A stretch of 64,000 nt of DNA from Natronosalvus vescus (GTDB lineage: Archaea; Halobacteriota; Halobacteria; Halobacteriales; Natrialbaceae). Position 1 is the first letter of the stretch. Each line of letters starts with the position of its first letter. The position numbers and the translations under genes were made by a program. The notes under the pieces were generated by a model. The model saw only the letters and a list, made by a program, of their open reading frames with translations. It was not told the origin of the DNA and did no database searches. This document shows positions 22,611 to 47,902 of this stretch, piece by piece. Location of the stretch: contig NZ_CP099546.1 in NCBI RefSeq assembly GCF_023973145.1, forward strand, positions 2,666,001 through 2,730,000, in the 5' to 3' direction.

Positions 22611-25600
22611 CTAGCGAGTCGGCTCGAGGGCGATCATCGGCGTTCTCGCATCCGTCGTATTGTTGTCTGTCTCGTTATCGTTCGCGTTTTCGGTTTCGTC
22701 ATCGCTGTCGTTCGCGTCGTCAGCATCCGTCTCGCCGTCCTCTTCGCCGACACCCTCATCATTCGCATCCGGGTCGGCTTCCGGCGGTTCGGGTTCGGCA
22801 TCAGGATCCGGTACGACCTCGCCGTCACCCGGCTCGAGAACCAACTCGATCGTCTCGCCGTCGACGACGGCCGTCTCCGGTACGTCGGTCGTGCCGAGAT
22901 ACTCGCGTTCGATCTCGCCATCCTCGGGCGTTCCGACGAACACCTCGTACTCGGCGTTATCGGTGGCAGTCACGGCGCTGTCCGCGTACCCATCGTCCGG
23001 CCCGAGCGTGTTGTCCGTGGCGTAAGGCACGGTCAGCTCGTAGGTGCCGTCCTCGTTCACCTCGGCTTGCTGGGTGTAGGTGAACGTTCGCCCGGCGTTC
23101 GTCTCGAGTTCGACCTGCGCGTACACGCGGTCGGCGTCTCCAACTTCACCGTCGACGATACCGCTGATCGTCGCGCCGTCGACGCGCTCGAACGTTTTGA
23201 CCGAGGAGACGACCTCCGCGTTGTACACGTACTGGGTGGTAAGCATCCCCTCTATCTGGTAGTTTTGCTGGAACAGCGTTGCCTCGTTGGCCGCACTCGC
23301 GCCTTCGAGCATGGCGTCGATGTTTTGGATCTGCTCGTTGTAGCCGGTCGGCGCACCGAAGCGCTCCGAGCTGACCGTGATGTCGAAGGCCTGGCCGTTC
23401 GGCAGGACGTGGATCTCCGAGCCGACGATCGAGAACCAGTTCGACTCGTGAACCAGCCGGTAGTGTTCCATTCCCTCGGCATCGTCGAGGTACAGCGATG
23501 CGAGCATCGTGTTTCGGTACTGCTCGTTTGTCGTCGACACCTCGAGCTCCTGGCCCTCGACGTTCGCCATGTCGCTCTCGGCGTACTGTTCATACTCGGT
23601 TTCGGTCCACTCCGTGATCGCGCTGAATTTGCCACCGGCCATCTGGTCGTCGATCATCACGTACCGAATCTCCTCGTGGCCTGACTCGCCTTCGAGGTCG
23701 GCTTCGATCTGCTCGAGCGGGCGGTTGACGACCGGCACGTCGGCCGCAACGCCGTCGAGGATCGCCTCACCGTGGGCTTCCTCCTGGGCGAGTAAGTACC
23801 ACGACGACGAGCGCGCGTTCGACTGGAACGGGTTCGAGTGGGGCATCCGCTCGGCGTTCGTCGTGATCAGGTGGCCGTAGTCCCACCAGGACATCACGCC
23901 GTAGGCGCCGACCGGGTAGTCGTAGTCACCGTCATCGGGGTACTCGTAGGTGCCGTAGTACTCGAGCTGGCTCTGGTTGCCCGCTCCGGCCCAGTTACCG
24001 GATTCGGGCGTGCTCTCGAGCATCCACTGGGTGGATTCGTCCCAGACGACCGCGTCACCGCTCGGGTTCGCGGCGGCACCGCGATCCCAGGCGGTGGCAC
24101 CGGGGCCGGCGATCGGTGGCAGTAGCGGCATAAACAGCATCATCACGACGAGGAAGATCGCGATTACCTGGTAGGTCTCGATCTCCCGTATCTGCTGGGC
24201 ACTACCGTGAAAGTCGATCTGGAGCAAGCGAGCGATGTCGGCGACGAAGACGGCGTTCAGCACGGCGACCGCGAGCACGAGGTAGTAGGCGAACCGGATC
24301 TGCGTTGCCGCCATACTCGTCAGGAACAGCGTCCAGACGACGATCAGGGTGTACTCGGTGCGCCACTCACGGCCGAACAGCGGGCGAATGAGGAGGAATG
24401 CGAGGCCGCCGAGCATGGTGAAGAAGGCGGCACCGAACTCGTTGAAGACGTGGTTGGCGAAGTTGTCGGGGCGCTGGGCTTCGGAGATGGTTGCGTCGGT
24501 TGCCGTTGCGCCGAACGGGATCAGTCGCCGGTAGAGGTTATCGAGAATCGTGTTGAAGATGTCAGGCAGCACGACCGCCATAACCAGCAACGATGCACCC
24601 ATGATCCCGACGATTGCAGCCGGGTAGTACTCCCGCTGGAGTGAGCGGCCGTCCCACTGGCGTGCCAGCCAGGCCATAAACACTGCACCAATGGCGACGA
24701 CTCCCGCCGTCAGCGGCTGGATGTAGCTAAAACTCGTGGGACTCGAACCGGGCTCCTCGAGAAGCGCCAGCGTCATGATCGTCGTGACGCCCATGCTGAC
24801 CGCAGCGACGAACGCGAGGTGATCGGGTGAGCGTCCGCGGAGGTACTGCACACAGAGGCTGACGACGAAGAAGGTTCCAAAGATCCCGACGAGGACGACG
24901 CCCGGGGGCCAGACCCAGATGTAGAGACCGGTTGCGAACCCGGCGAGTGCGCTGTAGATTGTCGGTCGGCGAAGAGTGTCCCAGTCTCGAGCCTCGACGA
25001 GCTCCCAGATCGGTCGATCCTGTTCGGCGACGCGAAGGGCAACCATCATCGCGAGGACGGCGATCGCCATGAACAGCACCTCAGCAACGTGGTGCTGGAG
25101 TTGGCCGACGGTCGAGCGCGAGAGGAACTGGCCGCGGGAGAGTGCGAGGACGACGACCGCGACGAGTCCGCCGAGCGTCCCCCCGAGACGACGTCCAATG
25201 AAGAAGACGGGGAGTGCAACGAGAGCGGCCATTACTGGAACGGCGACGATGGCGACAGTGTACAACGTCTCTGTCGACGGGGAGCCGAGACCGACGATCA
25301 TCGCTGCGGTGACGATTAGCTGATCGAACAGGGTGCCAAACTGGCCAACGTACCGGCCGGTGGGGAACGACGTCCAGATGTCGAACGGCATCGTGTACGG
25401 ATAGTTCTCGGCCGTCCACTGTACCGTTCGCCAATGATACCACGAGTCGACGGCAGACAGCCTGGGTTCGCCGTCGGCCATCGCAACTCGGTCGTACGAT
25501 TGGAGCCGCGTCCACAGCATGAAGAGCATCACGAGCCCAAGCACGGGCACGTGATACCACCGCTCGAGTGTCTCGAGCGTCGAGACGGTCGTTTCGCTCT

Positions 25601-25625
25601 CGACGCGCTCAGTGTCCGTACTCAT
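22611..25625 (-). CDS. aglB: AglB, archaeal oligosaccharyltransferase (STT3 family)
   Basis: Transfers the dolichol-linked glycan to Asn-X-Ser/Thr sites on S-layer and other exported proteins. 1004 residues. About 13 membrane segments occupy residues 20-500, including the first-loop motif SAVDSWYHWRT with the catalytic acidic residue. The signature WWDYG is in SWWDYGHLITTNAERMP (about 595-612), at the start of the extracellular domain. Beta-rich domains follow, then an Asp/Glu/Asn-rich tail of about 60 residues. The ATG at 25625 is chosen over an upstream in-frame start because the promoter motif at 25649-25663 is 23 nt upstream. It is the key enzyme of this locus. Confidence 0.95.
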   Translation of the reverse strand: MSTDTERVESETTVSTLETLERWYHVPVLGLVMLFMLWTRLQSYDRVAMADGEPRLSAVDSWYHWRTVQWTAENYPYTMPFDIWTSFPTGRYVGQFGTLFDQLIVTAAMIVGLGSPSTETLYTVAIVAVPVMAALVALPVFFIGRRLGGTLGGLVAVVVLALSRGQFLSRSTVGQLQHHVAEVLFMAIAVLAMMVALRVAEQDRPIWELVEARDWDTLRRPTIYSALAGFATGLYIWVWPPGVVLVGIFGTFFVVSLCVQYLRGRSPDHLAFVAAVSMGVTTIMTLALLEEPGSSPTSFSYIQPLTAGVVAIGAVFMAWLARQWDGRSLQREYYPAAIVGIMGASLLVMAVVLPDIFNTILDNLYRRLIPFGATATDATISEAQRPDNFANHVFNEFGAAFFTMLGGLAFLLIRPLFGREWRTEYTLIVVWTLFLTSMAATQIRFAYYLVLAVAVLNAVFVADIARLLQIDFHGSAQQIREIETYQVIAIFLVVMMLFMPLLPPIAGPGATAWDRGAAANPSGDAVVWDESTQWMLESTPESGNWAGAGNQSQLEYYGTYEYPDDGDYDYPVGAYGVMSWWDYGHLITTNAERMPHSNPFQSNARSSSWYLLAQEEAHGEAILDGVAADVPVVNRPLEQIEADLEGESGHEEIRYVMIDDQMAGGKFSAITEWTETEYEQYAESDMANVEGQELEVSTTNEQYRNTMLASLYLDDAEGMEHYRLVHESNWFSIVGSEIHVLPNGQAFDITVSSERFGAPTGYNEQIQNIDAMLEGASAANEATLFQQNYQIEGMLTTQYVYNAEVVSSVKTFERVDGATISGIVDGEVGDADRVYAQVELETNAGRTFTYTQQAEVNEDGTYELTVPYATDNTLGPDDGYADSAVTATDNAEYEVFVGTPEDGEIEREYLGTTDVPETAVVDGETIELVLEPGDGEVVPDPDAEPEPPEADPDANDEGVGEEDGETDADDANDSDDETENANDNETDNNTTDARTPMIALEPTR

Positions 25626-25648
25626 TAGCTTGCACGAGACGTAAGTCA

Positions 25649-25663
25649 AGAATAAGCCTTGTC
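25649..25663 (-). promoter_or_regulatory. aglB promoter, copy 1 of a 15-bp shared motif
   Basis: Minus strand GACAAGGCTTATTCT, with the TATA-like CTTATT. It ends 23 nt before the aglB ATG. The identical 15 bases occur on the plus strand at 25806-25820 with the same 23-nt spacing to the divergent glycosyltransferase ATG. Confidence 0.75.
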
Positions 25664-25805
25664 ATATCGCATCTCACTTTCTCATCAGTTGTGGCGTGGT
25701 GGTTCGGATACAGTTCGATGGGGTGAGAGTTGCCTTTTTCTCGAGCGAGTGTAGCTGGCTGAGCACACTTCGAGTCGTGATCGAGCGCCGTGATACTGAC
25801 CGAAG

Positions 25806-25820
25806 GACAAGGCTTATTCT
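25806..25820 (+). promoter_or_regulatory. Glycosyltransferase promoter, copy 2 of the 15-bp shared motif
   Basis: Plus strand GACAAGGCTTATTCT, 23 nt before the ATG at 25844. It is a perfect inverted copy of 25649-25663. Both spacings predict leaderless mRNAs, and the identity upstream of the TATA core suggests shared TFB or regulator recognition. Confidence 0.75.
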
Positions 25821-25843
25821 CCACACGTCAGAACGACCTGCCA

Positions 25844-26809
25844 ATGAGTACACGGGTCTCCGTCGTCATCTGCACCTACGCGATGGAGCGCTACGAGGTC
25901 TTTTCGGCGTGCGTCGAAAGCGCTCTCGAGCAAACCTACGAGCCGCTCGAGATCGTGATCGTCGTCGACGGGAACGAAGAGGTGTTCGACCGCGTCCGCG
26001 AGGATTTCGGTGACTGCGACGAGGTCGTCCTCCACTGCAACGACGCCAATCAGGGGATTTCCTATAGCCGGACGAAGGGAGCGAAGATTGCCACCGGTGA
26101 CGTCGTCGCGTTCATCGACGACGACGCGGTCGCCGAACCGGACTGGGTCGCCGAACTCGTCCGGGTGTACGAGGAGACCGACGCGATCGCTGTCGGCGGC
26201 CACGTCGCACCCGACTGGGTGACCGAGAAACCCGACTTCTTCCCGGCGGAGTTCTACTGGCTCGTCGGCTGTGACGAGCGAGGTATGGGCGAACACATGG
26301 AGGAACTCCGCAACACATACGGCTCGAACATCTCCTTTCGCCGGGACGTGTTCCTGAACGTTGGCGGCTACGACGAGAACACGGGTCGGAAAGGGGATCG
26401 GCACATCCAGGCGCACGAGGCCCCGGTCTGTATCCGAATGGCCAACAAGTACGGCAAAGGTGTGATCTATAACACGGACGCCGTGGTTCATCACAAGCTG
26501 TTCGACTACCGTGGCGAGTTCCGGTGGCTCGTGTTCCGGTCGTTCTGGCAGGGCTACTCGAAACGGATCATGGATCTCCTGTTGCCCGAGGCATCCGGGG
26601 ACAAGAACGATTATTTGAAGCAGCTCATGCTCGGGTTCGTTCCGTTACGTCTGAAAGAGTTGGTTCGTCGGCCCTCGAGTGCGAAACTCCAACAGCTCGT
26701 GACGATATTCGTCTTTACTGCGGCAGTTGGGTTGGGGTATTTGTACGGACTGCTCGAGGTGGATCGGTCGGAGTTGGTAGCCAGTCGTGACGCCGCGACG
26801 GATACCTGA
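25844..26809 (+). CDS. AglG/AglE-type family-2 glycosyltransferase
   Basis: 321 residues. A GT-A catalytic domain (about 5-230) has VSVVICTYAMERYEVF, EIVIVVDGNEE, the metal-binding DDD in VVAFIDDDAVAEPDWV, and an acceptor-region sequence GSNISFRRDVFLNVGGYDEN. A C-terminal hydrophobic segment (QLVTIFVFTAAVGLGYLYGL) anchors it to the inner face of the membrane, where it would add a sugar to dolichol phosphate-linked glycan. It resembles haloarchaeal AglG and AglE, but the sugar added cannot be read from sequence. It diverges from aglB with a matched promoter. Confidence 0.82.
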   Translation: MSTRVSVVICTYAMERYEVFSACVESALEQTYEPLEIVIVVDGNEEVFDRVREDFGDCDEVVLHCNDANQGISYSRTKGAKIATGDVVAFIDDDAVAEPDWVAELVRVYEETDAIAVGGHVAPDWVTEKPDFFPAEFYWLVGCDERGMGEHMEELRNTYGSNISFRRDVFLNVGGYDENTGRKGDRHIQAHEAPVCIRMANKYGKGVIYNTDAVVHHKLFDYRGEFRWLVFRSFWQGYSKRIMDLLLPEASGDKNDYLKQLMLGFVPLRLKELVRRPSSAKLQQLVTIFVFTAAVGLGYLYGLLEVDRSELVASRDAATDT

Positions 26810-26851: not shown

Positions 26852-27802
26852 TCACGGCTCGAGTTGCGGAACGCCCTCGAGGTTCCCGCGTCGATTTTCG
26901 GTGAGGTACTCCTGGTAGTAGCCCAGCCCACGGACGGCTGTGAGCAGCCTCGAGAGCGCGCCGAAGGCGAGTCGGTCTTTCGCGGGGAGGTCGCGATCGG
27001 GGCGTTTGATCCCGCTCGGGCGTGGGGGGATCCCGGGCGTGCCGTACCGATTGGGGTGATAGCGCTGGAGCTGACAGAGCCCGCGGCCGACGCGGCGATC
27101 CTTTTTGACGTGTGCGCTGAGGCTGTTCCTGGTCGGGTGGTACATAGTGGCGTCGTCGGCGAAGCGAAGGTCGTATCCGGCGTCGTGAACTCGGTTACCG
27201 AACTCCTTGTCGCCGCCAGACTCGAGGCGGTGGTCGAATAGCCCGACGTCCTCGAAGACTTCGCGCCGGACGAACAGACAGCAGGTGGGGGCGAACTGCT
27301 GGTGCTCGAGGTACTGTTTTACGGGAAAACCTGTGTGATGATCGTAGCGGGCAGCGAGCGAGCGATCTTCTGGGTGGGTAAGTTCCACGTTACAGCCCAT
27401 GTACGCGGCATTCGTCTCCTCAAATGCTTGGCGAGCGGTAGCAAGCCAGTCGTCGGGAACGGTCATGTCAGCATCGACGAACGCGATTATCTCGCCCGCT
27501 GACTGGCGGATCCCGCTGTTTCGAGCGGCGTAGGAGGATTGGACGGCGTCCTCGAGCACGCTCGATATCAGCTCGTCGTCGGTGTACGACTCGATCACTG
27601 TGGGCGTTCGATCCGTCGAGTCGTTATCAACAATGGTGAGGTGTGCCTCCCCTTCCTCAAGTTGTGGTCGAATTGACTCAACCGTCGCGCGAACCCCTGA
27701 CGGATCATTAAATACCGGCATCACAACTGAGATCACCGGGTTGGGAGACGTACTATCCATTTGGCCAGGTCGTGACGACGTAGATTGGGGAGAAAAAGGC
27801 AT
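26852..27802 (-). CDS. Family-2 glycosyltransferase (Agl locus)
   Basis: About 316 residues from the ATG at 27802. Other in-frame starts are ATG 27760 and GTG 27889. The GT-A core begins ISVVMPVFNDPSGVRATVES and includes HLTIVDNDSTDRTP, the DxD-type IIAFVDADMTVPDDW and CCLFVRREVFEDVGLFDHRL. No membrane segment is seen at the C-terminus, so it is probably a soluble or peripheral enzyme extending the dolichol-linked glycan, AglI/AglE-like. It converges with the plus-strand glycosyltransferase. The 5' part lies at the border of the AT-richer region. Confidence 0.78.
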   Translation of the reverse strand: MPFSPQSTSSRPGQMDSTSPNPVISVVMPVFNDPSGVRATVESIRPQLEEGEAHLTIVDNDSTDRTPTVIESYTDDELISSVLEDAVQSSYAARNSGIRQSAGEIIAFVDADMTVPDDWLATARQAFEETNAAYMGCNVELTHPEDRSLAARYDHHTGFPVKQYLEHQQFAPTCCLFVRREVFEDVGLFDHRLESGGDKEFGNRVHDAGYDLRFADDATMYHPTRNSLSAHVKKDRRVGRGLCQLQRYHPNRYGTPGIPPRPSGIKRPDRDLPAKDRLAFGALSRLLTAVRGLGYYQEYLTENRRGNLEGVPQLEP

Positions 27803-28040
27803 TGGTAAACTAGCATAATTCCCTGAAAATGAATGGATGCGTGACGGCAAATGAACGCGATATCCAATTTTCCATACCCTACATAACACGTTGGAACGAT
27901 GCCTTTGAATAGGTGGCCTTGACGGAACCAGTATCAGTGATCAAATACCCTCCTGAATTATTCAGGCTCCAGCGCAAGCACTGAGTCGGTAAAGACGACG
28001 TGGGCGTGATTCGACTTGAAGAAGCACACCACGATACTAA

Positions 28041-29477
28041 CTAAATCAATGGAAGATCGAACGGCAGGTTGTTCTTGACTGTTTTCTGGAACGTGGTCGA
28101 AATTACTAAGAGTGTGCCGAAATAGATGCTTGCACCGAGGGCAACCAAGATAACAACGAACACTGCGTTGTGCTGGGTGAGCCAATGGCCCTCTAATCCC
28201 GTGCGGACACCGTAAATAAGCAGACCCATGCTTAGTGCCGCAACCCACTGGTATAAGATATCAGCGAGTGGGATTGAGACGGGGACGAGCGCCTTGGTAT
28301 ACCGGAAAGCAAACACGAGCCCGAAGACGGCTGAGAGACCGGTTGCCACGGCAGCACCGATCCATCCAAACTGCCAGATCAAGAGGACGTTCAGGCAAAT
28401 GTTGGCCACAATGAAAACCGCGTTAGAACGGAATGCAAGGTCTGGTCGGTCGATCGCATTGAGGGTGTTCAGAAATTGTTTGTTATAGGAATAGATCAAA
28501 AGGCCAGCAATAAGGATCCCGAGAACTTCAGTACCTACGACGAACTCAGCTCCGTAAATCAACATGAGGAGATCACCAAGCACCAAAGCCCCAACGAATC
28601 CGGGGATAAGGATCAAACCGGCATACGTGAGTGCATCTTCCGTTAATGTCGCGACCATTCTAAAGTCACCCTCTGTTGACACCTTACTCATTTCCGGAAA
28701 CAGCGTGCTGCTTATTGCGTCGCTGAATATATTGAGGAATTTACTCAGTGACCAGGCAACAGAATAGACGCCGATGAGACCCTGCGTTACGAACAGCCCC
28801 AGGACAGTAATATCGATTGTGTTGAACGCACGTCCGCGAAAGCTCCCAAGCCATGCGTACTTCGCATAATCAAAGAGGTTAACAATATGGAATTTCTCCG
28901 GTCGGGCCGGGCGAAGCCCAAGAATCCACAGTCCAATCGTCGCAGTGACGAGGTACCCGAAGGCGTACCCAAACAACATACCACTAAGACCCATGCCGAT
29001 AGCGACCAGAAGAATCTGGGCCAGAGCCCTTGACGCCTGCCTTCCCGTCGATAAAATGGCATACACGTGCACGAGGTGATTACCTTGAAGGGTGGCGTTC
29101 ACGATCGACTTGTACAAAATCATAACAAGGATGAGAATGATAAATCCCGTCGCCGGGGCGCCGACATAGGCATCTACCTGCCCCCTGAACAGAAAGAGAA
29201 TCAATGAGGTTATGAGCAATAGAGCACACATCACAACGATTCCAGCACCGACAAATTCCTCCTCCTGTTCGCCTTCACTTACCCGTTTTGTAATTGCTCT
29301 GGAGAATCCCACCTTCCCCGCGAGGCTTGCCCACGTAATGATCGCCATCGCCAGCGCATATTGTCCAAGAACTTCAGCACCTAACACTCGAGCAAAATAA
29401 ATTGTTGCAATAAAGCCCAGTAAAGACCCGACAACTTTCGCGATAAAATAAATAAGTGATGTCTGACCAAGTCGCAT
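28041..29477 (-). CDS. Oligosaccharide flippase (MATE/Wzx-type, AglR-like)
   Basis: 478 residues with about 12-14 membrane segments across the whole length. The N-terminal SLIYFIAKVVGSLLGFIATI and YFARVLGAEVLGQYALAMAI are typical of the polysaccharide-biosynthesis exporter family. FRGRAFNTIDITVLGLFV and AISSTLFPEMSKVS are characteristic mid-protein segments. It would move the dolichol-linked glycan to the outside for AglB, as AglR is proposed to do in Haloferax. Base composition is clearly AT-richer than in aglB, which suggests separate acquisition. Confidence 0.85.
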   Translation of the reverse strand: MRLGQTSLIYFIAKVVGSLLGFIATIYFARVLGAEVLGQYALAMAIITWASLAGKVGFSRAITKRVSEGEQEEEFVGAGIVVMCALLLITSLILFLFRGQVDAYVGAPATGFIILILVMILYKSIVNATLQGNHLVHVYAILSTGRQASRALAQILLVAIGMGLSGMLFGYAFGYLVTATIGLWILGLRPARPEKFHIVNLFDYAKYAWLGSFRGRAFNTIDITVLGLFVTQGLIGVYSVAWSLSKFLNIFSDAISSTLFPEMSKVSTEGDFRMVATLTEDALTYAGLILIPGFVGALVLGDLLMLIYGAEFVVGTEVLGILIAGLLIYSYNKQFLNTLNAIDRPDLAFRSNAVFIVANICLNVLLIWQFGWIGAAVATGLSAVFGLVFAFRYTKALVPVSIPLADILYQWVAALSMGLLIYGVRTGLEGHWLTQHNAVFVVILVALGASIYFGTLLVISTTFQKTVKNNLPFDLPLI

Positions 29478-29743
29478 TTGTTATGTCACCGTAACCCGGT
29501 CGCAATGGGAAGGCTTGAGATAAATGGTGCAATGAACGCTCGAACTATATGCGTTTCCTCTTTCCACGAGATTGTGTGAATACAAACAGCACGTTGACTC
29601 TGAAAGAAATGTTCTCCGGTATGTCAACGCTAAGGGGAGGCTATCCAAAAGAAGGGAGACCATGCTGATACCGACTCCAGAGGGGTTATTAGCCATTTAG
29701 AAAGTTGCCAGAATCGATTACCGTTCGAAAGAATTATGGAGTA

Positions 29744-30457
29744 ATGAGCAACAACTTACATAATGATTTGAATCACTTGCCAATTGTTGCTCAATCACTT
29801 ATTAGAGATTTATTGAAAGAGTCATTTCTAACGATTGAACTCGCTTTTTCATTGGCAGCGGTGACCTTCGTCGGGTTCACATTCATAGCGTTCTATTATT
29901 CCGATATGAAAAGAGTTCGAAAAGCATACATTACGTACCTTCTTGTTGGGATAGTGATTGTCAGCATTGTCGGCGTTGAACTTCTCCCATTTGTGCATTT
30001 GCACAAGTTCATCGATTCGCCAGACCCGGTCGATAGTAACACTGAAGTCCGTCTTTTCGACGAAGATGGTAACGAAATCGTATACGACGCTCGAGCAAGC
30101 CCACCGCTTACTGAACCAATGACCGGACGTTTAGCAAGGTATTCATTAGAGAAAAACCCATCATCGAAAGGTGAATTCTTCGATCATTTGTTGTTAAATG
30201 CTTGTGAATTTAGAAATGAGGGTATTGAAACCGGAACCCGCTCTACAGTGGAAGGCTCGTTCCCCCCACACCATTTCGATTATAAGTGGAACACTGCCGA
30301 GTTAGCAAACTTTGGAGATATTGAAGGCATTGTCGTATACACTGTAACTATCGAATCGAGTTCCGACGGGAGAGAAGTCATCTCTCGAGAAGAAGAAAGG
30401 CAGTTTGAAAGATCGGTAGCGGAGGCAAGTGAGGAGGTGCAGGCTGCGTGTTCGTAA
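29744..30457 (+). CDS. Membrane-anchored hypothetical protein upstream of HTTM gene
   Basis: 237 residues from the ATG at 29744 (an in-frame TTG lies at 29705). Two membrane segments are clear, LTIELAFSLAAVTFVGFTFI and YLLVGIVIVSIVGVELLPFV. A mostly polar domain with KFIDSPDPVDSNTEVRLFDEDG and a C-terminal acidic helix (SREEERQFERSVAEASEEVQ) follows, probably outside. It is AT-rich, with codon use unlike the flanking agl genes. Its end overlaps the HTTM gene start by 10 nt, so the two are translationally coupled and probably work together. I do not recognise the family. Confidence 0.7.
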   Translation: MSNNLHNDLNHLPIVAQSLIRDLLKESFLTIELAFSLAAVTFVGFTFIAFYYSDMKRVRKAYITYLLVGIVIVSIVGVELLPFVHLHKFIDSPDPVDSNTEVRLFDEDGNEIVYDARASPPLTEPMTGRLARYSLEKNPSSKGEFFDHLLLNACEFRNEGIETGTRSTVEGSFPPHHFDYKWNTAELANFGDIEGIVVYTVTIESSSDGREVISREEERQFERSVAEASEEVQAACS

Positions 30458-31413
30458 ATTATTATGCAAATCCACGCTTCCACTCGAGCCTAAACGTCGC
30501 GGTTGCACGTCTCATATTGGGGATCACTTTACTCTGGAAAATTGTATCATACGACTGGAAGGCAATCAGTTCGTGGCCAGATGGCACACCAACAGCGGCA
30601 CCCAATAAGACGATAGAGGCATTTCACGTATTTCACATCGAAATCCTCCACGATCAATTACACCTCCTCAGTTGGTTAGCAATCATCTTTCTGGTCTGTT
30701 TTATCATCGGTTATCAATTAAAGTGGTCGAGCTTTCTCAGTTCAATGATTGTCTTCTACCTTATGGCGAACGTGTATTTCTTCAACTCCGTTGGAGAGAC
30801 CGAGACGGTATTTATTGTCATTTATTTCGTTCTGTTAATTGGATTGTACGATGAACATGATATGCTCACGATAGATGCCCTTCGTGAGGCCGGTGAAAAC
30901 AAAAGGAGCCGTTTAGAGGGTTGGTACTCCGACGCTACCTCTCACACCTTTCCCCAGCTAAAATGGGCACTTGTCATCTTCTCAACACTCTACTTTATGC
31001 CTGGGCTAGCAAAACTACTGACCGGCCCAGGACATAAATGGGTACAACCGGAAACGTTAGCGCGGTTTATCACCCACCGAAGTGAATTCTATACTTCGAC
31101 TGAAGTAGTCTTAGTCCCTTGGATAATGGAGTATGACATCTTCCTGTTTGGCATGGCATTCGGGACGATCTTCCTCCAAATTGGGTTTCTCCTCGCCGTT
31201 TTGCTTCGGCGCAATATCTCATTTTTCGCCCTCGGACTCATAGGAATGCACATTATGATCGCACTGACGATGCAGATACTGTTCATAATGAATATCATAT
31301 TGATATTGTGTTTTGTAGACTGGGAACGGGCGTATCAGACGTTCAGGAACCACAAGGAACAAGAAAGGTACTTTGACCGGTTATGGTTCGGTTCCAGTGA
31401 GTACAGAGAATAA
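30448..31413 (+). CDS. HTTM-family integral membrane protein
   Basis: 321 residues, start GTG overlapping the previous gene. About eight membrane segments, beginning SSLNVAVARLILGITLLWKI, a pattern typical of the HTTM superfamily related to vitamin-K-dependent gamma-carboxylase. WALVIFSTLYFMPGLAKLL followed by WVQPETLARFI is the usual second-half signature. HTTM proteins in haloarchaea occur with DUF393/DCC thiol-oxidoreductase-like genes, and such a fragment is at 32866-33123. The enzymatic role is unknown. AT-rich, probably acquired. A truncated paralogue lies downstream at 32206. Confidence 0.75.
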   Translation: MFVNYYANPRFHSSLNVAVARLILGITLLWKIVSYDWKAISSWPDGTPTAAPNKTIEAFHVFHIEILHDQLHLLSWLAIIFLVCFIIGYQLKWSSFLSSMIVFYLMANVYFFNSVGETETVFIVIYFVLLIGLYDEHDMLTIDALREAGENKRSRLEGWYSDATSHTFPQLKWALVIFSTLYFMPGLAKLLTGPGHKWVQPETLARFITHRSEFYTSTEVVLVPWIMEYDIFLFGMAFGTIFLQIGFLLAVLLRRNISFFALGLIGMHIMIALTMQILFIMNIILILCFVDWERAYQTFRNHKEQERYFDRLWFGSSEYRE

Positions 31414-31462
31414 CAACACAATCTAAAGACTCCAATAGAGATGGCAACAAATATAGCATACG

Positions 31463-32205
31463 GGCACTGTCTAGTTCTGCACCTCCTCGACGGGAGTTTG
31501 ACCGTTTAGTGCCTGGTTCGGTCGATCGTGGTTATAGTGGTGTCTGAAGCGTCTGAGCCAGCGACGTGCGCTGGCTGGACTGCCCCGCCAGAACGAATGA
31601 AAGCGGTCGATCCGCATCGACACTGTCTGGAACCACTTTTCGATGTGGTTTCGCTCGATGTAGTCGAGCTGACCGCTCAACTTCCGACGAGCGAGGGAAG
31701 TCAGATAGCCACCAGCATCCACGAGAAACGCTGTGTCGTCGAGATCGTGTTTCTCCTCCAATCGGTGGAGAAAGGCCGCCGCGGGGTCGGTGCCGCGACG
31801 GCTGAACACGTCGATTTCGAGCAGGAGCTTCGATTTTGTGTCGATCGCGGCGTACAGCCACTTTTTCTCGCCGTCGACCTCGATCTGTTTCTCATCGACC
31901 GCGACCCGTGACGGCGCTGCCGTCGGCGGGTCGCTCTGAGCCTCCGACAGCGTGTGCGTCCAGTTCCAAATTGCGCCGTGAGAGCGGTCAATGCTGAGTA
32001 ATTCGAGGACTGCAACGACCTCCCGAACCGACAGTCCCATCGAATGCAGCCGCACCCCAAACACCCTGACGGGTGTCGGGGTGCGCTCGTTCTCCCAAAC
32101 CTCATCACAATCCACGTTCAAGGTTTCTCTGAGCAGGTCGGCGAGTTGCATGGATACTTCTCGTCACCACCTGCTCGTTCCTCAAACTCTCATCTAGACA
32201 GTGCC
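31463..32205. mobile_element. IS6-family insertion sequence
   Basis: About 743 bp, bounded by perfect 12-bp terminal inverted repeats GGCACTGTCTAG (31463-31474) and CTAGACAGTGCC (32194-32205), with one transposase on the minus strand. IS6 elements normally make 8-bp target duplications, but the flanks (GCATACGG on the left, TCTCGGAG on the right) do not match. That points to an adjacent deletion or recombination after insertion, which agrees with the truncated HTTM gene directly to the right. Confidence 0.88.
31471..32151 (-). CDS. IS6-family DDE transposase
   Basis: 226 residues, full length for haloarchaeal IS6 enzymes. The N-terminal helix-turn-helix (MGLSVREVVAVLELLSIDRS) is followed by the catalytic core. 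First Asp in RVAVDEKQIEVDGEK, second in AFLVDAGGYL, Glu in ERNHIEKWFQTVSMRIDRF. The end RRFRHHYNHDRPNQALNGQT is typical. The stop codon lies in the left inverted repeat. It looks intact and probably active. Confidence 0.92.
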   Translation of the reverse strand: MQLADLLRETLNVDCDEVWENERTPTPVRVFGVRLHSMGLSVREVVAVLELLSIDRSHGAIWNWTHTLSEAQSDPPTAAPSRVAVDEKQIEVDGEKKWLYAAIDTKSKLLLEIDVFSRRGTDPAAAFLHRLEEKHDLDDTAFLVDAGGYLTSLARRKLSGQLDYIERNHIEKWFQTVSMRIDRFHSFWRGSPASARRWLRRFRHHYNHDRPNQALNGQTPVEEVQN

Positions 32206-32842
32206 TCTCGGAGTTATTCATCGAATGGCTGATGCGTCTTGGTCAACCCAGATGTTTTTCGTGTCCGCTCTACTTTTAATGCTGTTTGCCCTCTATGCTG
32301 ATCAGGATCAACTGTCGTACGATGGACTTCGTAATCGGTCTTCACGTGGAATAGATGCCCTGAACCGGCATCTCACAAAGCCGTTGACACCAAAGTATCG
32401 GGCGACGCCGCTGGCGGTGTTTCTTTTCGGACTAGCGGTCTTGTACTTCGGCTCAGGTGTAGCAAAGGTGGTGCTCGGTGGCCCAGAGTGGGTCTCAGCA
32501 ACGAATTTGGGAAGGTACATAGAACACTTCTATCAGTTAGGCTACTCCCCGTTCGTTCGGGATCTCGTATTGCAGTTCGATACGCTGCTTCTCATCGCAG
32601 CCATTGGGACGATCGTTTTTGAACTTGGATTCGTATTTTCAGTGTTGTTTGACAGGCTGTTTCACCTGTTCGTACTATTGGCGATCAGTTTCCACATCGG
32701 GATTGCAATCGTAATGGGTCCAGTGTTTCTCTATTCACTCGTCTTTCTTGCCTTGTTCGTTGACTGGGAGAAGATCCTCGAGCGTCTCGGGCCATCCAAC
32801 CGGTCACGGTCAAATACGACAACACTCACAGAAGGTGTGTGA
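32206..32842 (+). pseudogene. Second HTTM gene, 5' end removed by the IS6 element
   Basis: The frame starts inside the IS right end and then reads LGVIHRMADASWSTQMFFVS, LSYDGLRNRSSRG, AVLYFGSGVAKVVLGGPEWV and a multi-spanning C-terminal half. It aligns with residues from about 106 of the intact HTTM protein at 30448-31413. The first 100 or so residues, with the first membrane segments, are missing, and no remnant of them is seen left of the IS. Unless the remaining half works alone, the gene is dead. Confidence 0.8.
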
Positions 32843-32865
32843 AAGGATTGTAATTTTACAAATTT

Positions 32866-33123
32866 TTGGATGTGAACGAGACGATTGCCTTCGTCCCACA
32901 AAGAGAGTACAGTAAGGTGGCTGGATGTGGAGATAACATCAATCCCTCTGTCACAATTGCAGTGTGTCAAGGGGAGAATTATGTCGAAGGGTACGACGCA
33001 GTTGCCTATCTAACTCGGCATCTCGGGATTCTCTATCCAGTATATGTGGTTATGCATCTCCCTGGAATCAAGCGATTCGGCCATCACCTCTACCAATATG
33101 TGATGGCACCCGAACCCAACTGA
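32866..33123 (+). CDS. DUF393/DCC-like C-terminal fragment
   Basis: 85 residues from a TTG start. The C-terminal part (VEGYDAVAYLTRHL, YPVYVVMHLPGIKRFGHHLY) matches the end of DUF393/DCC1-type thiol-oxidoreductase-like proteins, which usually accompany HTTM genes. The N-terminal half with the CxxC active site is absent: the frame is closed by a TAA a few codons upstream. It may be a remnant or a short variant. It follows the HTTM pseudogene by 23 nt. Confidence 0.45.
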   Translation: MDVNETIAFVPQREYSKVAGCGDNINPSVTIAVCQGENYVEGYDAVAYLTRHLGILYPVYVVMHLPGIKRFGHHLYQYVMAPEPN

Positions 33124-33244
33124 GTCTGCACTGAAGGTATCCTTCGTGCTGGCGGTAGCATCTAACAGACAGAGCAAAGAGAAGTGCGGTGTATAGTGAT
33201 AAAGTTTCGGTACATAGAAATGACATGGGACTATCTCAGAACAC

Positions 33245-34351
33245 ATGCATCGACTGGTTCGCAGGGCTCGCGAAATTTACCGTTCTAAGGGTCTGGTAAA
33301 TCTCCTGAGCGGCGTGCTCCATTATTCAGCGCGGAAAATCGCAGCGCTATCGACGTTTATTCGGGCGGAGTGGGGAAACCCCTACCGGAAACGGGTGCCC
33401 CTGCAATGGCGGGTGCGGCTGCTCTCAAATGGATTCCTGTCCCAATCGTACTTCTTTTACGATATTTCGAACCTCAACGAGTATGTCTCAAACTACCATC
33501 GGGATTTTCGAACGCGAGAGATAAACGGGAAATCCGAGCGAATCTTCAACGATAAACTTCTCTTCCACCAATTGTTCGATCGCGTACTGAACGGGCATGT
33601 TGCTGAGGCTCTCGCGTGGATGGACGACGGTGAACTCTATTTTTTCCATGATGTTGATTCGTTCCAGCAGCTCATTGATGAACACGACCAGCTAATAGTG
33701 AAACCTCGTCTCGGAGGGGGTGGCGACGATATCCAGCGGATCACAAGTAAGGAGGGTACTCTCTTACTCAATGGAGAAGAGATCCAGACCGAAATGCTCT
33801 TCGCCCGCATTCGAGACAAGACAGATTCCATTGTCTGTGAGTTCATCGAGCAAGACAACTATTCGAGTCAAATCTTTCCACACTCGTTGAATACAATCCG
33901 AATACTGACCATGGTCGACCCAGATACCGGTGAGGCGTTTATCCCGATCGCAGTACACCGATTCGGGACGGCCGACTCAGTACCGACCGATAATTGGTCA
34001 AAAGGCGGGATCGCATCGCAGGTGGATATCGACTCCGGAGAACTCAGTCCTGCAGCCGGTATCGCCGAGGATGGAACCATCTCGTGGTATGCATCTCACC
34101 CAGATACGGGCGAACAAATTGAAGGGGCGGAAATCCCTGGGTGGACTACATTGGCGGAGCAAATTGTACGCGTCGCCGAACAGTATCCTAACTTACCGTA
34201 TGCTGGATGGGATGTCGCTATTGACGCCAATGGAGAGTTCAAAGTTATTGAGGTCAACAGCTACCCTGACGTCAATATGATCCAAATTCACAAGCCCTTG
34301 TTATCGGATGAACGCATCACCCGTTTCTACGAATCCCATCACGTCTTGTGA
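33245..34351 (+). CDS. ATP-grasp enzyme, sugar-transfer-associated type
   Basis: 368 residues. The N-terminus (MHRLVRRAREIYRSKGLVN) is basic and may be peripheral to the membrane. The ATP-grasp core runs from about 115: DQLIVKPRLGGGGDDIQRI (glycine-rich lysine-containing loop), SIVCEFIEQDNYSSQIFPHS, NTIRILTMVDPDTGEAF, and the metal-binding end WDVAIDANGEFKVIEVNSYPDVN. This matches the ATPgrasp_ST family found in polysaccharide clusters. Family enzymes join a carboxylate to an amine or thiol through an acyl phosphate. The substrate here is unknown, with glycan modification inferred from context. Confidence 0.78.
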   Translation: MHRLVRRAREIYRSKGLVNLLSGVLHYSARKIAALSTFIRAEWGNPYRKRVPLQWRVRLLSNGFLSQSYFFYDISNLNEYVSNYHRDFRTREINGKSERIFNDKLLFHQLFDRVLNGHVAEALAWMDDGELYFFHDVDSFQQLIDEHDQLIVKPRLGGGGDDIQRITSKEGTLLLNGEEIQTEMLFARIRDKTDSIVCEFIEQDNYSSQIFPHSLNTIRILTMVDPDTGEAFIPIAVHRFGTADSVPTDNWSKGGIASQVDIDSGELSPAAGIAEDGTISWYASHPDTGEQIEGAEIPGWTTLAEQIVRVAEQYPNLPYAGWDVAIDANGEFKVIEVNSYPDVNMIQIHKPLLSDERITRFYESHHVL

Positions 34352-34464
34352 CAATCAAACTAAGTGCGCACGTGATCTGATTCGCCACGGATAGACGTAC
34401 AGTCTGTGAGACGCTGCTTTGAACAAGAAGACTTTATGCCACACCCGACACATCTCAGAATGGC

Positions 34465-35391
34465 GTGAGTACAATAGAAGACGCAAAGCGTCTCTATCGG
34501 TCTGGTGGGATTCGGTCGCTCCCCAGTGGAGTAGTATACTATTTACTCAAAGAAGGCCCTACTGCCAACTTCACAAAGCGTATTTTGGGATCTACGCTGC
34601 ATCAGAAATGTCTGGTCTATCCGAGTTTGGGCTATTGGCCACAGATCGAGAATCCACAAACCTTCAACGAGAAAATCCTCCACAGAAAGTTACGGACGAG
34701 CGATGATCGTCTCGCAACCGTTGAAGGAAAAATTACGGCTCGAGAATATGCTGCTGATCGCATTGGTGATGATAAGCTTCCTGAGGTATACCACGTCACG
34801 GACAATCCAGAGGAGATCCCGTTTGAGTCATTCCCAGAGGAGTACGTGATCAAACCCACGCATATGGCTGGTGAGGTGATATTTGCCGAAAAGGGTGAGA
34901 CACCGGATCACGCAGCAATAAAAGAACGGTGTAAACAGTGGTTGAACGCTGACTATGGCTATATTCGAAACCAGTATTGGAACGCTGATATCGACCGCCA
35001 GGTTATGGTCGAAGAGCGCCTCTCTGACCCGGAGTTCGACGTCCCAATCGATTATAAGATGTACGTGTTTCATGGGAATGTCGAATACATACACATCGAT
35101 TTCGACCGCTTTGGTAGTCCATCGAGACGGTTCTTTGACAGGGACTGGAACGCCCTGGATTTCCGAAAAGGTGAACTGCCACTTGGCCCAGCGATCGAGA
35201 AACCGAATCAATTTGAAGAGATGATTGCTACCGCAGAAACCCTGGGCGCGGATTTTGATTTTATTCGCGTTGATCTGTACAACCTCGAGGATCAGGAGAT
35301 ATTGTTTGGGGAGTTGACGAGCTGCCCTGCATCGGGAATGACGCCGTTTCATCCCCAATCTTACGACCATGAATTTGGTTCTCTCTGGTAG
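34465..35391 (+). CDS. TupA-like ATP-grasp protein
   Basis: 308 residues from a GTG start. The family pattern is clear: GYWPQIENPQTFNEKILHRK near the start, VYHVTDNPEEIPFESFPEEY, VIKPTHMAGEVIFAEKGE, VMVEERLSDPEFDVPIDYKM and the terminal acidic residues in FDFIRVDLYNLEDQEILFGE. TupA-type proteins are associated with teichuronopeptide, exopolysaccharide and glycan clusters. With the ATP-grasp gene just upstream (113 nt) this suggests amide-linked decoration of a sugar acid. AT-rich like its neighbours. Confidence 0.8.
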   Translation: MSTIEDAKRLYRSGGIRSLPSGVVYYLLKEGPTANFTKRILGSTLHQKCLVYPSLGYWPQIENPQTFNEKILHRKLRTSDDRLATVEGKITAREYAADRIGDDKLPEVYHVTDNPEEIPFESFPEEYVIKPTHMAGEVIFAEKGETPDHAAIKERCKQWLNADYGYIRNQYWNADIDRQVMVEERLSDPEFDVPIDYKMYVFHGNVEYIHIDFDRFGSPSRRFFDRDWNALDFRKGELPLGPAIEKPNQFEEMIATAETLGADFDFIRVDLYNLEDQEILFGELTSCPASGMTPFHPQSYDHEFGSLW

Positions 35392-35601
35392 TTATCACGG
35401 TCTGTCGGGTAACTATGAGCTAGTATAGCTAACGACAAGCGATAGATGCGTTCCAGATTCTCAAACCACCAATATCTTCGTTGTTGAGTCTGTCAAACTG
35501 TGGTTCTAAACAAGTGCCATTCAATTTGTTGTCAATAAAAACTCCAATTACCTCCCGTTCGACATGCCCTTCATGGCAAAATAATATCGCGCTCGCTCAC
35601 A

Positions 35602-35611
35602 AAGCATATGT
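35602..35611 (+). promoter_or_regulatory. TATA-like element before aglF
   Basis: AAGCATATGT ends 24 nt before the ATG at 35636 and 15 nt before the ATG at 35627. The spacing favours 35636 as the start of a leaderless message. Confidence 0.4.
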
Positions 35612-35635
35612 CCGCCCGCTAAAATTATGACTACT

Positions 35636-36373
35636 ATGCAAGCAGTCGTCCTCGCCGCCGGCAAAGGCACCCGCCTCCGGCCCCTCACCGAAGACAAACC
35701 GAAAGCGCTCGTGGAGGTCGACGGAAAGCCTCTCCTCGAGGACGTCTTCGACAACCTCCTCAGGATCGGAGCCACCGAACTCATCGTCGTCGTCGGCTAC
35801 ATGAAAGAGAAGATTATCGAACGCTACGGCGACGCCTACGAGGGCGTCCCGATCACCTACGCCCACCAGCGCGAGCAGTTGGGGCTGGCCCACGCGATCC
35901 TTCAGGCCGAACCGCACATCGAGGACGATTTCGTCCTGATGCTCGGCGACAACATCTTCCGGGCAAATCTCGGCGACGTGATCAACCGTCAGCAGGAGGA
36001 GCGCGCCGACGCCGCATTCCTCGTCGAGGAGGTGCCCTGGGAGGAGGCCTCCCGCTACGGCGTCCTCGACACGAACGGCTACGGCGAGGTCGTCGAAGTG
36101 ATGGAGAAGCCGGATGACCCACCGTCGAACCTCGTGATGACCGGCTTCTACACGTTCACGCCGGCGATCTTCCACGCCTGTCACCTCGTCCAGCCCTCCG
36201 ACCGTGGCGAGTACGAACTGCCGGACGCCATCGACCTGTTGATCCAGTCGGGGCGGACGATCGATGCAATTCGGATGGACGGCTGGCGGATCGATGTCGG
36301 CTACCCTGACGACCAGGAAAAGGCCGAAGAGCGCCTGCAGGACGACGAGCAGGTACTCTCGGCGAGCGAGTAA
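35636..36373 (+). CDS. aglF: AglF-type sugar nucleotidyltransferase
   Basis: Makes a UDP- or dTDP-sugar from the sugar 1-phosphate. Haloferax AglF is a glucose-1-phosphate uridylyltransferase. 245 residues. The nucleotide-binding signature MQAVVLAAGKGTRLRPLTED starts the protein, with KPKALVEVDGKPLL next, VLMLGDNIF (metal-binding Asp) near residue 103 and the C-terminal GWRIDVGYPDDQEKAEERL. The base composition returns to GC-rich here, marking the right border of the AT-rich insert. It is followed by aglM, which would use UDP-glucose. Confidence 0.85.
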   Translation: MQAVVLAAGKGTRLRPLTEDKPKALVEVDGKPLLEDVFDNLLRIGATELIVVVGYMKEKIIERYGDAYEGVPITYAHQREQLGLAHAILQAEPHIEDDFVLMLGDNIFRANLGDVINRQQEERADAAFLVEEVPWEEASRYGVLDTNGYGEVVEVMEKPDDPPSNLVMTGFYTFTPAIFHACHLVQPSDRGEYELPDAIDLLIQSGRTIDAIRMDGWRIDVGYPDDQEKAEERLQDDEQVLSASE

Positions 36374-36472: not shown

Positions 36473-37774
36473 ATGAATGTCTCTATCGTCGGTAGCGGCT
36501 ACGTCGGCACCACGATCGCGGCCTGTCTGGCCGACCTCGGCCACGACGTAACCAACGTTGAGATCGACGCCGAAACTGTCGACACGATCAACGCCGGCGA
36601 GTCCCCGATCCACGAACCGGGACTTGAAGAACGGATCGCCGAACACGCGGGCACGCGACTCCGTGCAACGACTGACTACGGCGCGGTTCGAGACACCGAC
36701 CTCACGTTTCTCTGTCTCCCGACCCCACAGCACGACGACGGGAGCCTCGATCTGACGGCGATGCGAGCGGCCAGTGAGTCCCTCGGCGCTGCCCTCGCCG
36801 AGAAAGACGGCGATCACCTCGTCGTCGTCAAGAGCACGGTGTTACCCGGAACCACGGACGAGGTCGTCGGCCCGACCGTCAGCGAACACGCCGGGACGCC
36901 GATCGGCGAGGGGCTCGAGCTAGCGATGAACCCCGAGTTCCTGCGGATGGGCTCTGCAGTCGATGACTTCCTCGAGCCCGAGAAGGTCGTCGTCGGGGCC
37001 ACGTCCCAGGCGGCCGCCGACACCCTGCGGACGCTCTACGCCCCCATGTGCGACCGCGGCGCTGCCTTCGTCGAAACCGGCGTCCGCGAGGCCGAGTTGA
37101 TCAAGTACGCGAACAACGCGTTCCTCGCCTCGAAGGTCTCCCTGGTGAACGAACTCGGGAACATCGCGAAAGCCTACGACGTCGACGCCTACGAGGTACT
37201 CGAGGCGGTAGGCCTCGACGATCGGATCTCAGACCAGTTCATGCGCTCGGGCCTCGGCTGGGGCGGGTCGTGTTTCCCAAAGGACGTGAACGCGTTGCGG
37301 GCGGGCGCACGGGAGCAGGGCTACGAACCCGCCCTGCTTGACGCCGTTGTCAGGGTCAACGACGGCCAGCCGCGTCGCCTGGTCGACCTGCTTTCGAACC
37401 ACGTCAACCTCGAGGGCGCTCGAATCGCCGTCCTTGGACTCTCGTTCAAGCCACACACCGACGACTTGCGCAAGTCGCGTGCGCTCGACGTGATCGATCA
37501 CCTACGCGATCGGGGGGCGGCAGTCGTGGCCTACGACCCCGTTGCCGCCGACTCGCTCAGCAAGCGGTACCCCGAGTACGCCGACCTCGAGTACGCCGAC
37601 AGCGCGGCCGACGCCCTCGAGAACGCGGACGGCGCGGTCGTCGCGACCGACTGGCCGGAGTTCGACGACCTCGAGGCAGCACTCGACGGGATGGCACGAA
37701 AAGTCCTCGTCGACGGCCGGCGCATCGACATCGACACCGACGCCCTCGAGGTGTACGACGGGTTGACCTGGTGA
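36473..37774 (+). CDS. aglM: UDP-glucose 6-dehydrogenase AglM
   Basis: Oxidises UDP-glucose to UDP-glucuronate with two NAD+, supplying the uronic acids of the haloarchaeal N-glycan. 433 residues. Rossmann motif MNVSIVGSGYVGTTIAACLA at the start, the substrate loop MNPEFLRMGSAV, the conserved lysine in EAELIKYANNAFLASKV and the catalytic cysteine in GLGWGGSCFPKDVNAL (about 265). C-terminal domain with LGLSFKPHTDDLRKSRA. It follows aglF in the same orientation with a 99-nt gap. Confidence 0.94.
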   Translation: MNVSIVGSGYVGTTIAACLADLGHDVTNVEIDAETVDTINAGESPIHEPGLEERIAEHAGTRLRATTDYGAVRDTDLTFLCLPTPQHDDGSLDLTAMRAASESLGAALAEKDGDHLVVVKSTVLPGTTDEVVGPTVSEHAGTPIGEGLELAMNPEFLRMGSAVDDFLEPEKVVVGATSQAAADTLRTLYAPMCDRGAAFVETGVREAELIKYANNAFLASKVSLVNELGNIAKAYDVDAYEVLEAVGLDDRISDQFMRSGLGWGGSCFPKDVNALRAGAREQGYEPALLDAVVRVNDGQPRRLVDLLSNHVNLEGARIAVLGLSFKPHTDDLRKSRALDVIDHLRDRGAAVVAYDPVAADSLSKRYPEYADLEYADSAADALENADGAVVATDWPEFDDLEAALDGMARKVLVDGRRIDIDTDALEVYDGLTW

Positions 37775-37861: not shown

Positions 37862-38896
37862 ATGAACGACGAGGGTGGTCTCGAATCGGAATATCACGAC
37901 GGTGACACACAGGTTACGGACGCGACCGTCGAGGAGAGACCACTGTCCGATATCGATCACCCCCTTACGCCCGCACGGGTCTGCATCCTGATCCCGACGC
38001 TCGAGGAGGCCGCGACGATCGGCAGCGTCATCGACGACTTCCGCGACCGCGGCTACGAGAACGTGCTCGTCGTCGATGGCGACTCGGGCGACGGCACGCG
38101 CGATATCGCTCGCGATCACGGGGCCCGCGTGCTCACCCAGTCCGGCTCCGGGAAGGGCCAGGCCGTTCGCGAGGCGATCGAGCACATCGACGCCGACTAC
38201 GTGTTGATGCTCGACGGCGACGGCACCTACGACCCGGACGACGCAGAGACCATGCTCGAACCGCTCACCCGCGGTTACGAGCACGTCATCGGGAACCGCT
38301 TTGCGCGGATGGACGAAGATGCCATGAAGCGGCTCAACGGCGTCGGCAATCGTCTCATCAACGGTGCGTTTGGGTTCATCCACGGCGCGAACTACGGGGA
38401 CATTCTCTCGGGCTACCGGGCGTTCACCCGCGACTCCTTCGAGCGATTGTTGCTCGAGGCGGACGGGTTTACGATCGAGACGGAACTCGCCGTCGAATGC
38501 GTCCGCCAGGGAATCGAGACGACGGTCGTCCCGGTTAGCTACCGTGCGCGACCGGAGGACTCGGAGACGAACCTCCACCCGGTCTGGGACGGCGGGACGA
38601 TCATCCTGACGCTGTACTCACTCGCGAAGACGAACAACCCGCTGTTTTATTTCGGCAGCGTTGGGGTCACCTCGATCCTGACCGGTTGTCTCCTGGCTGG
38701 CTTCGTCCTCTGGCAGTGGATTCAGTACAACATCGGCCACGAGATTATCGCCGTCGTGTCGGCGGCGGCGATCCTCCTCGGGGTGCAACTCCTCATGTTC
38801 GGCGTCCTCTCGGATATGATCGTGACGCTCCACCGCGAACAGCGCCGACGGCTCGAGTCGGTGCGTCGCGAGATACACGGCGACCGTGAGCGGTGA
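37862..38896 (+). CDS. aglJ: AglJ, dolichyl-phosphate hexosyltransferase
   Basis: Family-2 glycosyltransferase adding the first hexose to dolichol phosphate in S-layer N-glycosylation. 344 residues. The catalytic domain starts at about 40: VCILIPTLEEAATIGSVIDD, VLVVDGDSGDGTRDI, and DXD-like MLDGDGTYDPDDAE. GDILSGYRAFTRDSFE is the signature seen in AglJ/Dpm1-like enzymes. Two membrane segments lie at the C-terminus (VGVTSILTGCLLAGFVLW and IIAVVSAAAILLGVQLLM). The first 38 residues are an acidic extension. Confidence 0.9.
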   Translation: MNDEGGLESEYHDGDTQVTDATVEERPLSDIDHPLTPARVCILIPTLEEAATIGSVIDDFRDRGYENVLVVDGDSGDGTRDIARDHGARVLTQSGSGKGQAVREAIEHIDADYVLMLDGDGTYDPDDAETMLEPLTRGYEHVIGNRFARMDEDAMKRLNGVGNRLINGAFGFIHGANYGDILSGYRAFTRDSFERLLLEADGFTIETELAVECVRQGIETTVVPVSYRARPEDSETNLHPVWDGGTIILTLYSLAKTNNPLFYFGSVGVTSILTGCLLAGFVLWQWIQYNIGHEIIAVVSAAAILLGVQLLMFGVLSDMIVTLHREQRRRLESVRREIHGDRER

Positions 38897-46171: not shown

Positions 46172-46463
46172 GACTATTAATACGTGCTCGGTTCGTTTAT
46201 AGGTAATAACTCCTTCTCACCGACCGGGAGAGCACTCTCGACCCAGGAGTGACGCCACGTTCTGCGTTTTGTCAACACGCTTCCTGAATACGGGAATTGG
46301 AACTCGAGACACGTCCTTTGACATCGGGACGAGTCGGCCGTCCGCTTTGTTAACACTATAGATATGGACTACATTGGCGGCCGATGAGCGGTGGGTAGTC
46401 GGACGATTCTTCCTCCCATCGATGGGTAACGATCGGTGACTGTCAGTCGTTCGTGGTCGTACG

Positions 46464-47878: not shown

Positions 47879-47902
47879 ACTGGACACAGTCACAGTCAAT
47901 TC

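Follow-up and report, generated by a model that had tools for sequence, protein, structure and literature searches.

A haloarchaeal N-glycosylation (agl) locus lies in the window, the 64-kb stretch (2666001-2730000) of the 3.84-Mb genome of Natronosalvus vescus (Natrialbaceae) that we analysed. Its middle is taken up by an AT-rich island (27632-35635, no strand), whose last two genes are predicted to encode the ATP-grasp enzymes ATPgrasp_ST and TupA. The assignment to the agl class comes from profile matches of the flanking genes. On the left lie aglB, encoding a predicted oligosaccharyltransferase (22611-25649, minus strand; TIGR04154, 846.7 bits against a cut-off of 450, subfamily grade), aglG, for a glucosyl-dolichyl-phosphate glucuronosyltransferase (25790-26809, plus strand; NF041394, 528 bits, cut-off 440), and a GT2 glycosyltransferase gene recognised by Pfam only (26852-27889, minus strand; PF00535), which is the last conserved gene of this flank. 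On the right, all on the plus strand, follow aglF, encoding a UTP-glucose-1-phosphate uridylyltransferase (35627-36373; NF041313, 432 bits, cut-off 400), aglM, encoding a UDP-glucose 6-dehydrogenase (36473-37774; NF041297, 694 bits, cut-off 670), and aglJ, for the dolichol-phosphate glycosyltransferase that adds the first sugar (37862-38896; TIGR04182, 457 bits, cut-off 325). The matches of aglG, aglF, aglM and aglJ are all of equivalog grade. Since the aglG model is that of a glucuronosyltransferase and AglF and AglM are present, the window encodes both a supply of UDP-glucuronate (UDP-GlcA) and a transferase that would use it.

Between the aglB and aglF flanks the base composition drops sharply, as a sequence-only reading of this DNA had noted. 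The GC content is 0.489 at 28041-35391 and 0.633 in the remaining window (standard deviation 0.028 in 1-kb windows), a difference far from chance. At third codon positions (GC3), the island genes, excluding an insertion sequence (IS) described below, reach 0.42-0.57, and aglB, aglG, aglF, aglM and aglJ reach 0.78-0.85. AT-richness does not mark the island as unique: of 12 comparable agl loci of the Natrialbaceae, 11 have a lower-GC interval in the corresponding position. Comparison with a genome of the same genus (G250) set the borders of the island. Order and orientations of aglB-aglG-GT2-aglF are identical there, the GT2 gene at the same place is 71% identical, and the flank alignments (82% and 86% identical) stop at about 27546/27631 and restart at 35636, so that the segment in between has no counterpart; the aligned flanks are 365 bp apart in G250 and 8.09 kb apart in the window. 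Other Natrialbaceae carry GT4, GT61 and sulfatase-family genes and other flippases at this place instead of the gene set of the window. The shared flanks with their different spacing, together with the recurring GC drop, indicate that this is no fixed gene set but a glycan cassette that can be swapped, and by these alignments we regard the island as the exchangeable middle of a conserved agl locus. Such exchange has precedent, as agl clusters vary between close relatives by gene exchange in Haloferax species and in Halorubrum lacusprofundi (PMC5867893, PMC6011602), although the main texts of these reports name no ATP-grasp gene.

The two ATP-grasp genes stand on the same strand as the right flank, in the order ATPgrasp_ST, TupA, aglF, aglM, aglJ, each separated from the next by 87-235 bp. 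The TupA-like gene (34465-35391, plus strand) is predicted to encode an ATP-grasp amidoligase (PF14305, 140.7 bits, 8e-41, cut-off 25), and the match spans profile positions 1-238 of 241. In an alignment of 33 sequences the protein keeps 15 of 15 invariant columns, including K130, E183, D196, K198, R268, D270 and E283. Its AlphaFold2 (AF2) model has a predicted local distance difference test score (pLDDT) of 92.6, and a Foldseek comparison of this model with the PDB gave as best matches the ATP-grasp ligases PsnB, Ddl, LysX/ArgX and RimK (E 3.5e-7, probability 1.00, template modelling score (TM-score) about 0.35-0.5). RimK, LysX/ArgX and Ddl are of the carboxylate-amine type, and PsnB is a graspetide ligase. 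The TupA-like protein is intact, and its model has the ATP-grasp fold. The ATPgrasp_ST gene (33245-34351, plus strand) is predicted to encode a RimK-like ATP-grasp ligase (PF14397, 138.2 bits, 4e-40, cut-off 31.4) in which all invariant ATP-grasp residues are kept. It also matches, below the cut-off, the model of a RimK-related glutamate ligase (TIGR02291, 2e-14), and from this resemblance we infer that an amino acid is a likely co-substrate. A sequence search gave no convincing solved structure of a TupA-like or ATPgrasp_ST protein. Plasmid-borne relatives of TupA are annotated as 'ATP-grasp fold amidoligase family protein'; the Pfam and NCBI names are annotations and no proof of function.

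TupA-like genes are rare, occurring in seven of the 292 haloarchaeal genomes of our set, and an alignment search brought up many bacterial copies and additional ones from haloarchaea. Among the 12 haloarchaeal TupA loci, at least one glycan gene lies in the flank of 11, and AglF (at least 73% identity) is encoded within 15 kb in five (the window, G020, SHR40, Natrialba chahannaoensis and Halobacterium salinarum); as several TupA loci end at contig ends, these neighbour counts are lower bounds. In G020 a second aglB-like gene lies beside TupA and aglF. General clustering of surface-glycan genes explains part of this association. ATPgrasp_ST is encoded within 8 kb of TupA in four of the 12 loci (the window, Natronolimnohabitans, SHR40 and Natronococcus). 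In the last three (L133, L136 and L139) the two genes recur jointly, and L133 and L139 also encode polytopic membrane proteins of 562-635 residues that belong to no family.

ATPgrasp_ST genes are more widespread (49 of the 292 genomes) and often stand at polysaccharide loci. Genes for sugar transfer are clear near ATPgrasp_ST in L040, L044, L051, L054 and L057 and were not seen in L049, L050 and L053. Twelve loci retrieved with ATPgrasp_ST but lacking TupA (L048-L059) all have no aglF within about 10 kb. The sequence-only reading had named a consistent occurrence of the ATP-grasp genes away from glycosylation loci as an outcome that would speak against it; this is not so for TupA and partly so for ATPgrasp_ST. 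The genome of the window holds a second ATPgrasp_ST gene (G000:C1:3712-4917, L048), with a GC content of 0.51 and near a contig start, which adjoins an open reading frame (ORF) of a cluster that recurs in several loci and is possibly a transposase.

The remainder of the island begins with a gene for a polysaccharide flippase of the Wzx/AglR type (28041-29477, minus strand; PF01943, 2e-21), and flippases 40-63% identical to it are found in many other agl loci. It is followed by a pair of genes on the plus strand. TM2 (29705-30457), the first gene of this conserved pair, encodes a membrane protein of no family that has two helices and a soluble domain, and HTTM1 (30448-31413), which overlaps TM2 by 10 bases, encodes an HTTM-like membrane protein that has no Pfam match on its own and lacks a C-terminal DCC1 domain. 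Full-length relatives of HTTM1 mostly have about 420 residues or more with DCC1 at the C-terminus; HTTM1 stops before this domain, as do its counterparts in three other loci (L103, L104 and L109). A second, damaged HTTM gene lies further downstream (HTTM2, 32201-32842, plus strand; PF05090, 27.2 bits, below the cut-off of 27.7), 30% identical to HTTM1 at the protein level (5e-23). The name HTTM expresses resemblance, as neither protein reaches the PF05090 cut-off.

Between the two HTTM genes we found an IS6-family insertion sequence (31463-32205, minus strand), which the sequence-only reading had overlooked in a gene list that otherwise held: flippase, TM2-HTTM, HTTM and DUF393 remnants, ATPgrasp_ST and TupA. 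Its transposase (31471-32151) matches NF033587 at 171 bits (cut-off 125), and its terminal inverted repeats (TIRs; GGCACTGTCTAG) are perfect over 12 bp at 31463-31474 and 32194-32205. There is no 8-bp target duplication, the flanks AGCATACG and TCTCGGAG being unlike, which fits an adjacent deletion or recombination. The HTTM2 frame starts within the TIR, and its N-terminus is lost exactly at the end of the element, so that the IS6 element accounts for the truncated copy. Behind HTTM2 follows a DCC1/DUF393 remnant (32866-33123, plus strand; PF04134, 24.2 bits, cut-off 27.8) that covers profile positions 23-103 only. As the match begins only at position 23, the segment that bears the N-terminal CxxC motif is gone, and no in-frame upstream segment of this kind is present at the locus. 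HTTM2 and the DCC1 fragment are best read, from their order and matches, as leftovers of a second HTTM-DCC1 gene. The agl locus of another genome of the genus (G174) holds part of an IS6 transposase (L115:4694-5149), 94% identical to the transposase of the window.

Of the 292 genomes, 19 have TM2-HTTM, with the two genes adjacent in every one. Its genomic contexts are mostly ordinary chromosomal ones, unrelated to glycosylation, and aglF (at least 70% identity) lies near HTTM in one of the 19 loci. This exception, G263 (L096:3910-12974), is an AT-rich locus (GC 0.37-0.43) with a TM2-HTTM-DCC1 pair, a flippase, an AglF of 78% identity and an AglM of 58% identity (equivalog grade); it also encodes a 633-residue protein of no known family and a PglZ-like protein. 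We tried to place TM2 as SdpA or in another known family and rejected this, as it gave no Pfam match above cut-off, no NCBIfam match and no structural match: its AF2 model (pLDDT 76) found no match in the PDB. A check for an SdpA/SdpB-type pair gave a weak match of HTTM2 alone to TIGR04033 (24.9 bits against a cut-off of 178.4). As it adjoins HTTM in every genome found, TM2 is a good candidate for a family, so far undescribed, of obligate partners of HTTM proteins. TM2-HTTM forms a two-gene module of its own, which has partly decayed here and stands outside ATP-grasp decoration.

Two further features of the window lie away from the island. A GC dip at 5595-7402 holds a TnpA-like ORF (5595-5912, minus strand) and a TnpB-like ORF (6086-7402, plus strand), recognised by eye from their translations, and is probably an IS200/IS605 element. 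From 45302 to 60449, many small UspA-like universal stress proteins are encoded over 15 kb, again recognised by eye, from the starts of the translations.

What might the ATP-grasp enzymes do at an agl locus? In the N-glycans of Methanococcus voltae and M. maripaludis, threonine is amide-linked to uronic acid. An amino acid amide on the uronic acid of an archaeal N-glycan is therefore a kind of linkage not new to archaea, although these are methanogens with a different sugar set; linkage and enzymes would be new to haloarchaea. The closest enzymatic precedent comes from Campylobacter jejuni, where the C-terminal domain of Cj1438 (Cj1438C) amidates the C6 carboxylate of GlcA with serinol phosphate or ethanolamine phosphate (PMC11800379). 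Its authors describe a TupA-like ATP-grasp fold, that is, family PF14305, so that its relation to the TupA of the window is one by description; Cj1438C works in a surface-glycan pathway with glucuronate, as the TupA of the window would, and the C6 amide is formed by Cj1438C at the expense of ATP (PMC11800379). Unlike the protein of the window, Cj1438C is part of a larger bacterial protein, in which it is joined to a GT2, and serves the capsule rather than an N-glycan; its amines come from dedicated enzymes, none of which was seen at the window. The family takes its name from TupA of alkaliphilic Bacillus halodurans, which makes a teichuronopeptide with glucuronate and glutamate (PMC8153356), a bacterial cell-wall polymer and not a dolichol-linked N-glycan. 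Haloferax volcanii shares the frame of aglB, aglF, aglG, aglJ and aglM with the window, and its AglP caps a hexuronic acid carboxylate of the lipid-linked N-glycan as methyl ester (PMC3827465); this cap depends on S-adenosylmethionine, in contrast to the amide that an ATP-grasp enzyme would form.

We propose that the island is a laterally acquired, exchangeable cassette for glycan diversification in a conserved agl frame, with the TupA-like enzyme amidating glucuronate, and we give this reading about an even chance. By family membership, AglF and AglM would make UDP-glucuronate, AglJ would start the chain on dolichol phosphate and AglG would add glucuronate. The TupA-like enzyme would use ATP to convert the C6 carboxylate of glucuronate, in the lipid-linked glycan or in UDP-GlcA, to an acyl phosphate, which an amine would then turn into a uronamide; this step is modelled on Cj1438C and on the intact ATP-grasp residues. 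ATPgrasp_ST may ligate a further amino acid or modify a second uronic acid, a more speculative step. The island flippase would flip the decorated glycan and AglB would transfer it. The TM2-HTTM pair, the HTTM2 and DCC1 remnants and the IS6 element would form a membrane module of their own, partly decayed, which occupies the same insertion site and is dispensable for decoration. The sequence-only reading had proposed a cassette that decorates uronic acids. Its core survives, with TupA-like, and probably ATPgrasp_ST, as predicted carboxylate-amine ligases, because of the Cj1438C precedent, the intact protein and the company that TupA keeps with aglF and glycan genes. Our analysis supports the sequence-only reading in part: that the TupA-like enzyme amidates uronic acids is a good hypothesis, open to test, and has a characterised precedent in the family.

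Several observations weigh against this proposal. Because of the damage done by the IS, part of the island may be non-functional. Copies of ATPgrasp_ST in the same genus stand at a conserved place remote from the agl loci. Among 60 TupA loci of at least 15 kb, haloarchaeal and bacterial taken jointly, a UDP-glucose 6-dehydrogenase is encoded near TupA in two, so that a link to glucuronate is no general feature of the TupA family. Near the island we recognised neither a phosphatase nor an amine-making (pyridoxal phosphate, PLP) enzyme of the kinds that the Campylobacter pathway uses. In Halobacterium salinarum DSM 3754 (L047/L143:1-3851), a locus resembling that of the window in its aglF-flippase-aglJ arrangement, the 3' part of a TupA-like gene lies 54 bp from aglF; the N-linked tetrasaccharide of this species, GlcA(2S)-IdoA(3S)-GlcA-Glc, is sulfated and contains iduronic acid (IdoA), and no amide has been reported (PMC13308652). 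The Hbt. salinarum gene is cut by the contig end and may be broken or strain-specific; its missing N-terminal half was not found in the genome, which is no evidence of its absence, and the literature examined makes no mention of the fragment beside aglF.

That N-glycan without a reported amide would also suit ATP-grasp enzymes that serve another surface polymer, such as an exopolysaccharide or a teichuronopeptide-like polymer of glutamate and glucuronate, sharing the locus and the UDP-GlcA supply while the N-glycan is not amidated. TupA is named for teichuronopeptide, which consists of poly-gamma-glutamate and polyglucuronate in alkaliphilic Bacillus (PMC8153356); the TupA gene of Halorussus salinisoli adjoins a gene for a PGA_cap polyglutamate capsule protein (L134:8495-9808), and the TupA loci of SHR40 and G128 contain genes (heparinase-type, sulfatase, Wzy or GT4) of the sort that polymer loci usually have. 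Yet we recognised in the island no gene for a polymerase, chain length or polyglutamate, its flanks are N-glycan genes at equivalog or subfamily grade, and the Hbt. salinarum copy likewise stands beside aglF, flippase and aglJ. We consider this explanation rather unlikely. Still less probable is a scrapyard of horizontally acquired genes, parked at a hypervariable site and decaying through IS activity, with no current role in glycan synthesis. An IS6 element lacking its target duplication, a truncated HTTM2, a DCC1 remnant that has lost its CxxC, the G250 locus without a counterpart of the island and the low GC3 would all be expected of such a place; against it, flippase, TM2, HTTM1, ATPgrasp_ST and TupA are full-length, and the invariant positions are intact in both ATP-grasp proteins although their relatives are only 30-50% identical, which argues for purifying selection until recently.

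The one part of the sequence-only reading that we abandon is the membership of HTTM and DUF393. One functional uronic acid-decorating cassette made up of HTTM, DUF393 and ATP-grasp enzymes would account for their neighbourhood in the window and for the second TM2-HTTM pair, that of G263, which shares an AT-rich locus with flippase, aglF and aglM, but it is highly improbable. Elsewhere TM2-HTTM is unlinked to TupA or ATPgrasp_ST, its 19 genomes carry it almost always remote from agl genes, no TupA locus outside the window has the pair, the DCC1 domain lacks its CxxC segment here, and the second HTTM copy is an IS-cut remnant. We therefore rejected a single cassette for all island genes, TM2-HTTM being a separate unit. 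The complete set of HTTM, DUF393 and ATP-grasp genes, which the sequence-only reading suggested looking for near other aglB genes, was found in no other genome searched.

If glucuronate is indeed amidated by the TupA-like enzyme, haloarchaeal N-glycans would have a linkage so far undescribed in them, with amide-capped uronic acids, and particular archaeal genes could be named as candidates for making such a cap. The amide caps would take away negative charge, whereas uronic acids and sulfation normally contribute it, and would provide an alternative to the methyl ester of AglP for capping a carboxylate. The amidoligase activity of TupA-like enzymes would extend from bacterial capsules to protein glycosylation. 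It is further conceivable, though less likely than not, that the glucuronate of some haloarchaeal N-glycans bears an amine or amino acid in amide linkage, which ATPgrasp_ST might lengthen to a short aminoacyl chain reminiscent of teichuronopeptide, and that this decoration is exchanged between species as a cassette. In having fixed flanks around an AT-rich middle that can be exchanged, the agl locus itself behaves as bacterial capsule loci do, which is relevant to mating and to how archaeal viruses recognise the cell surface.

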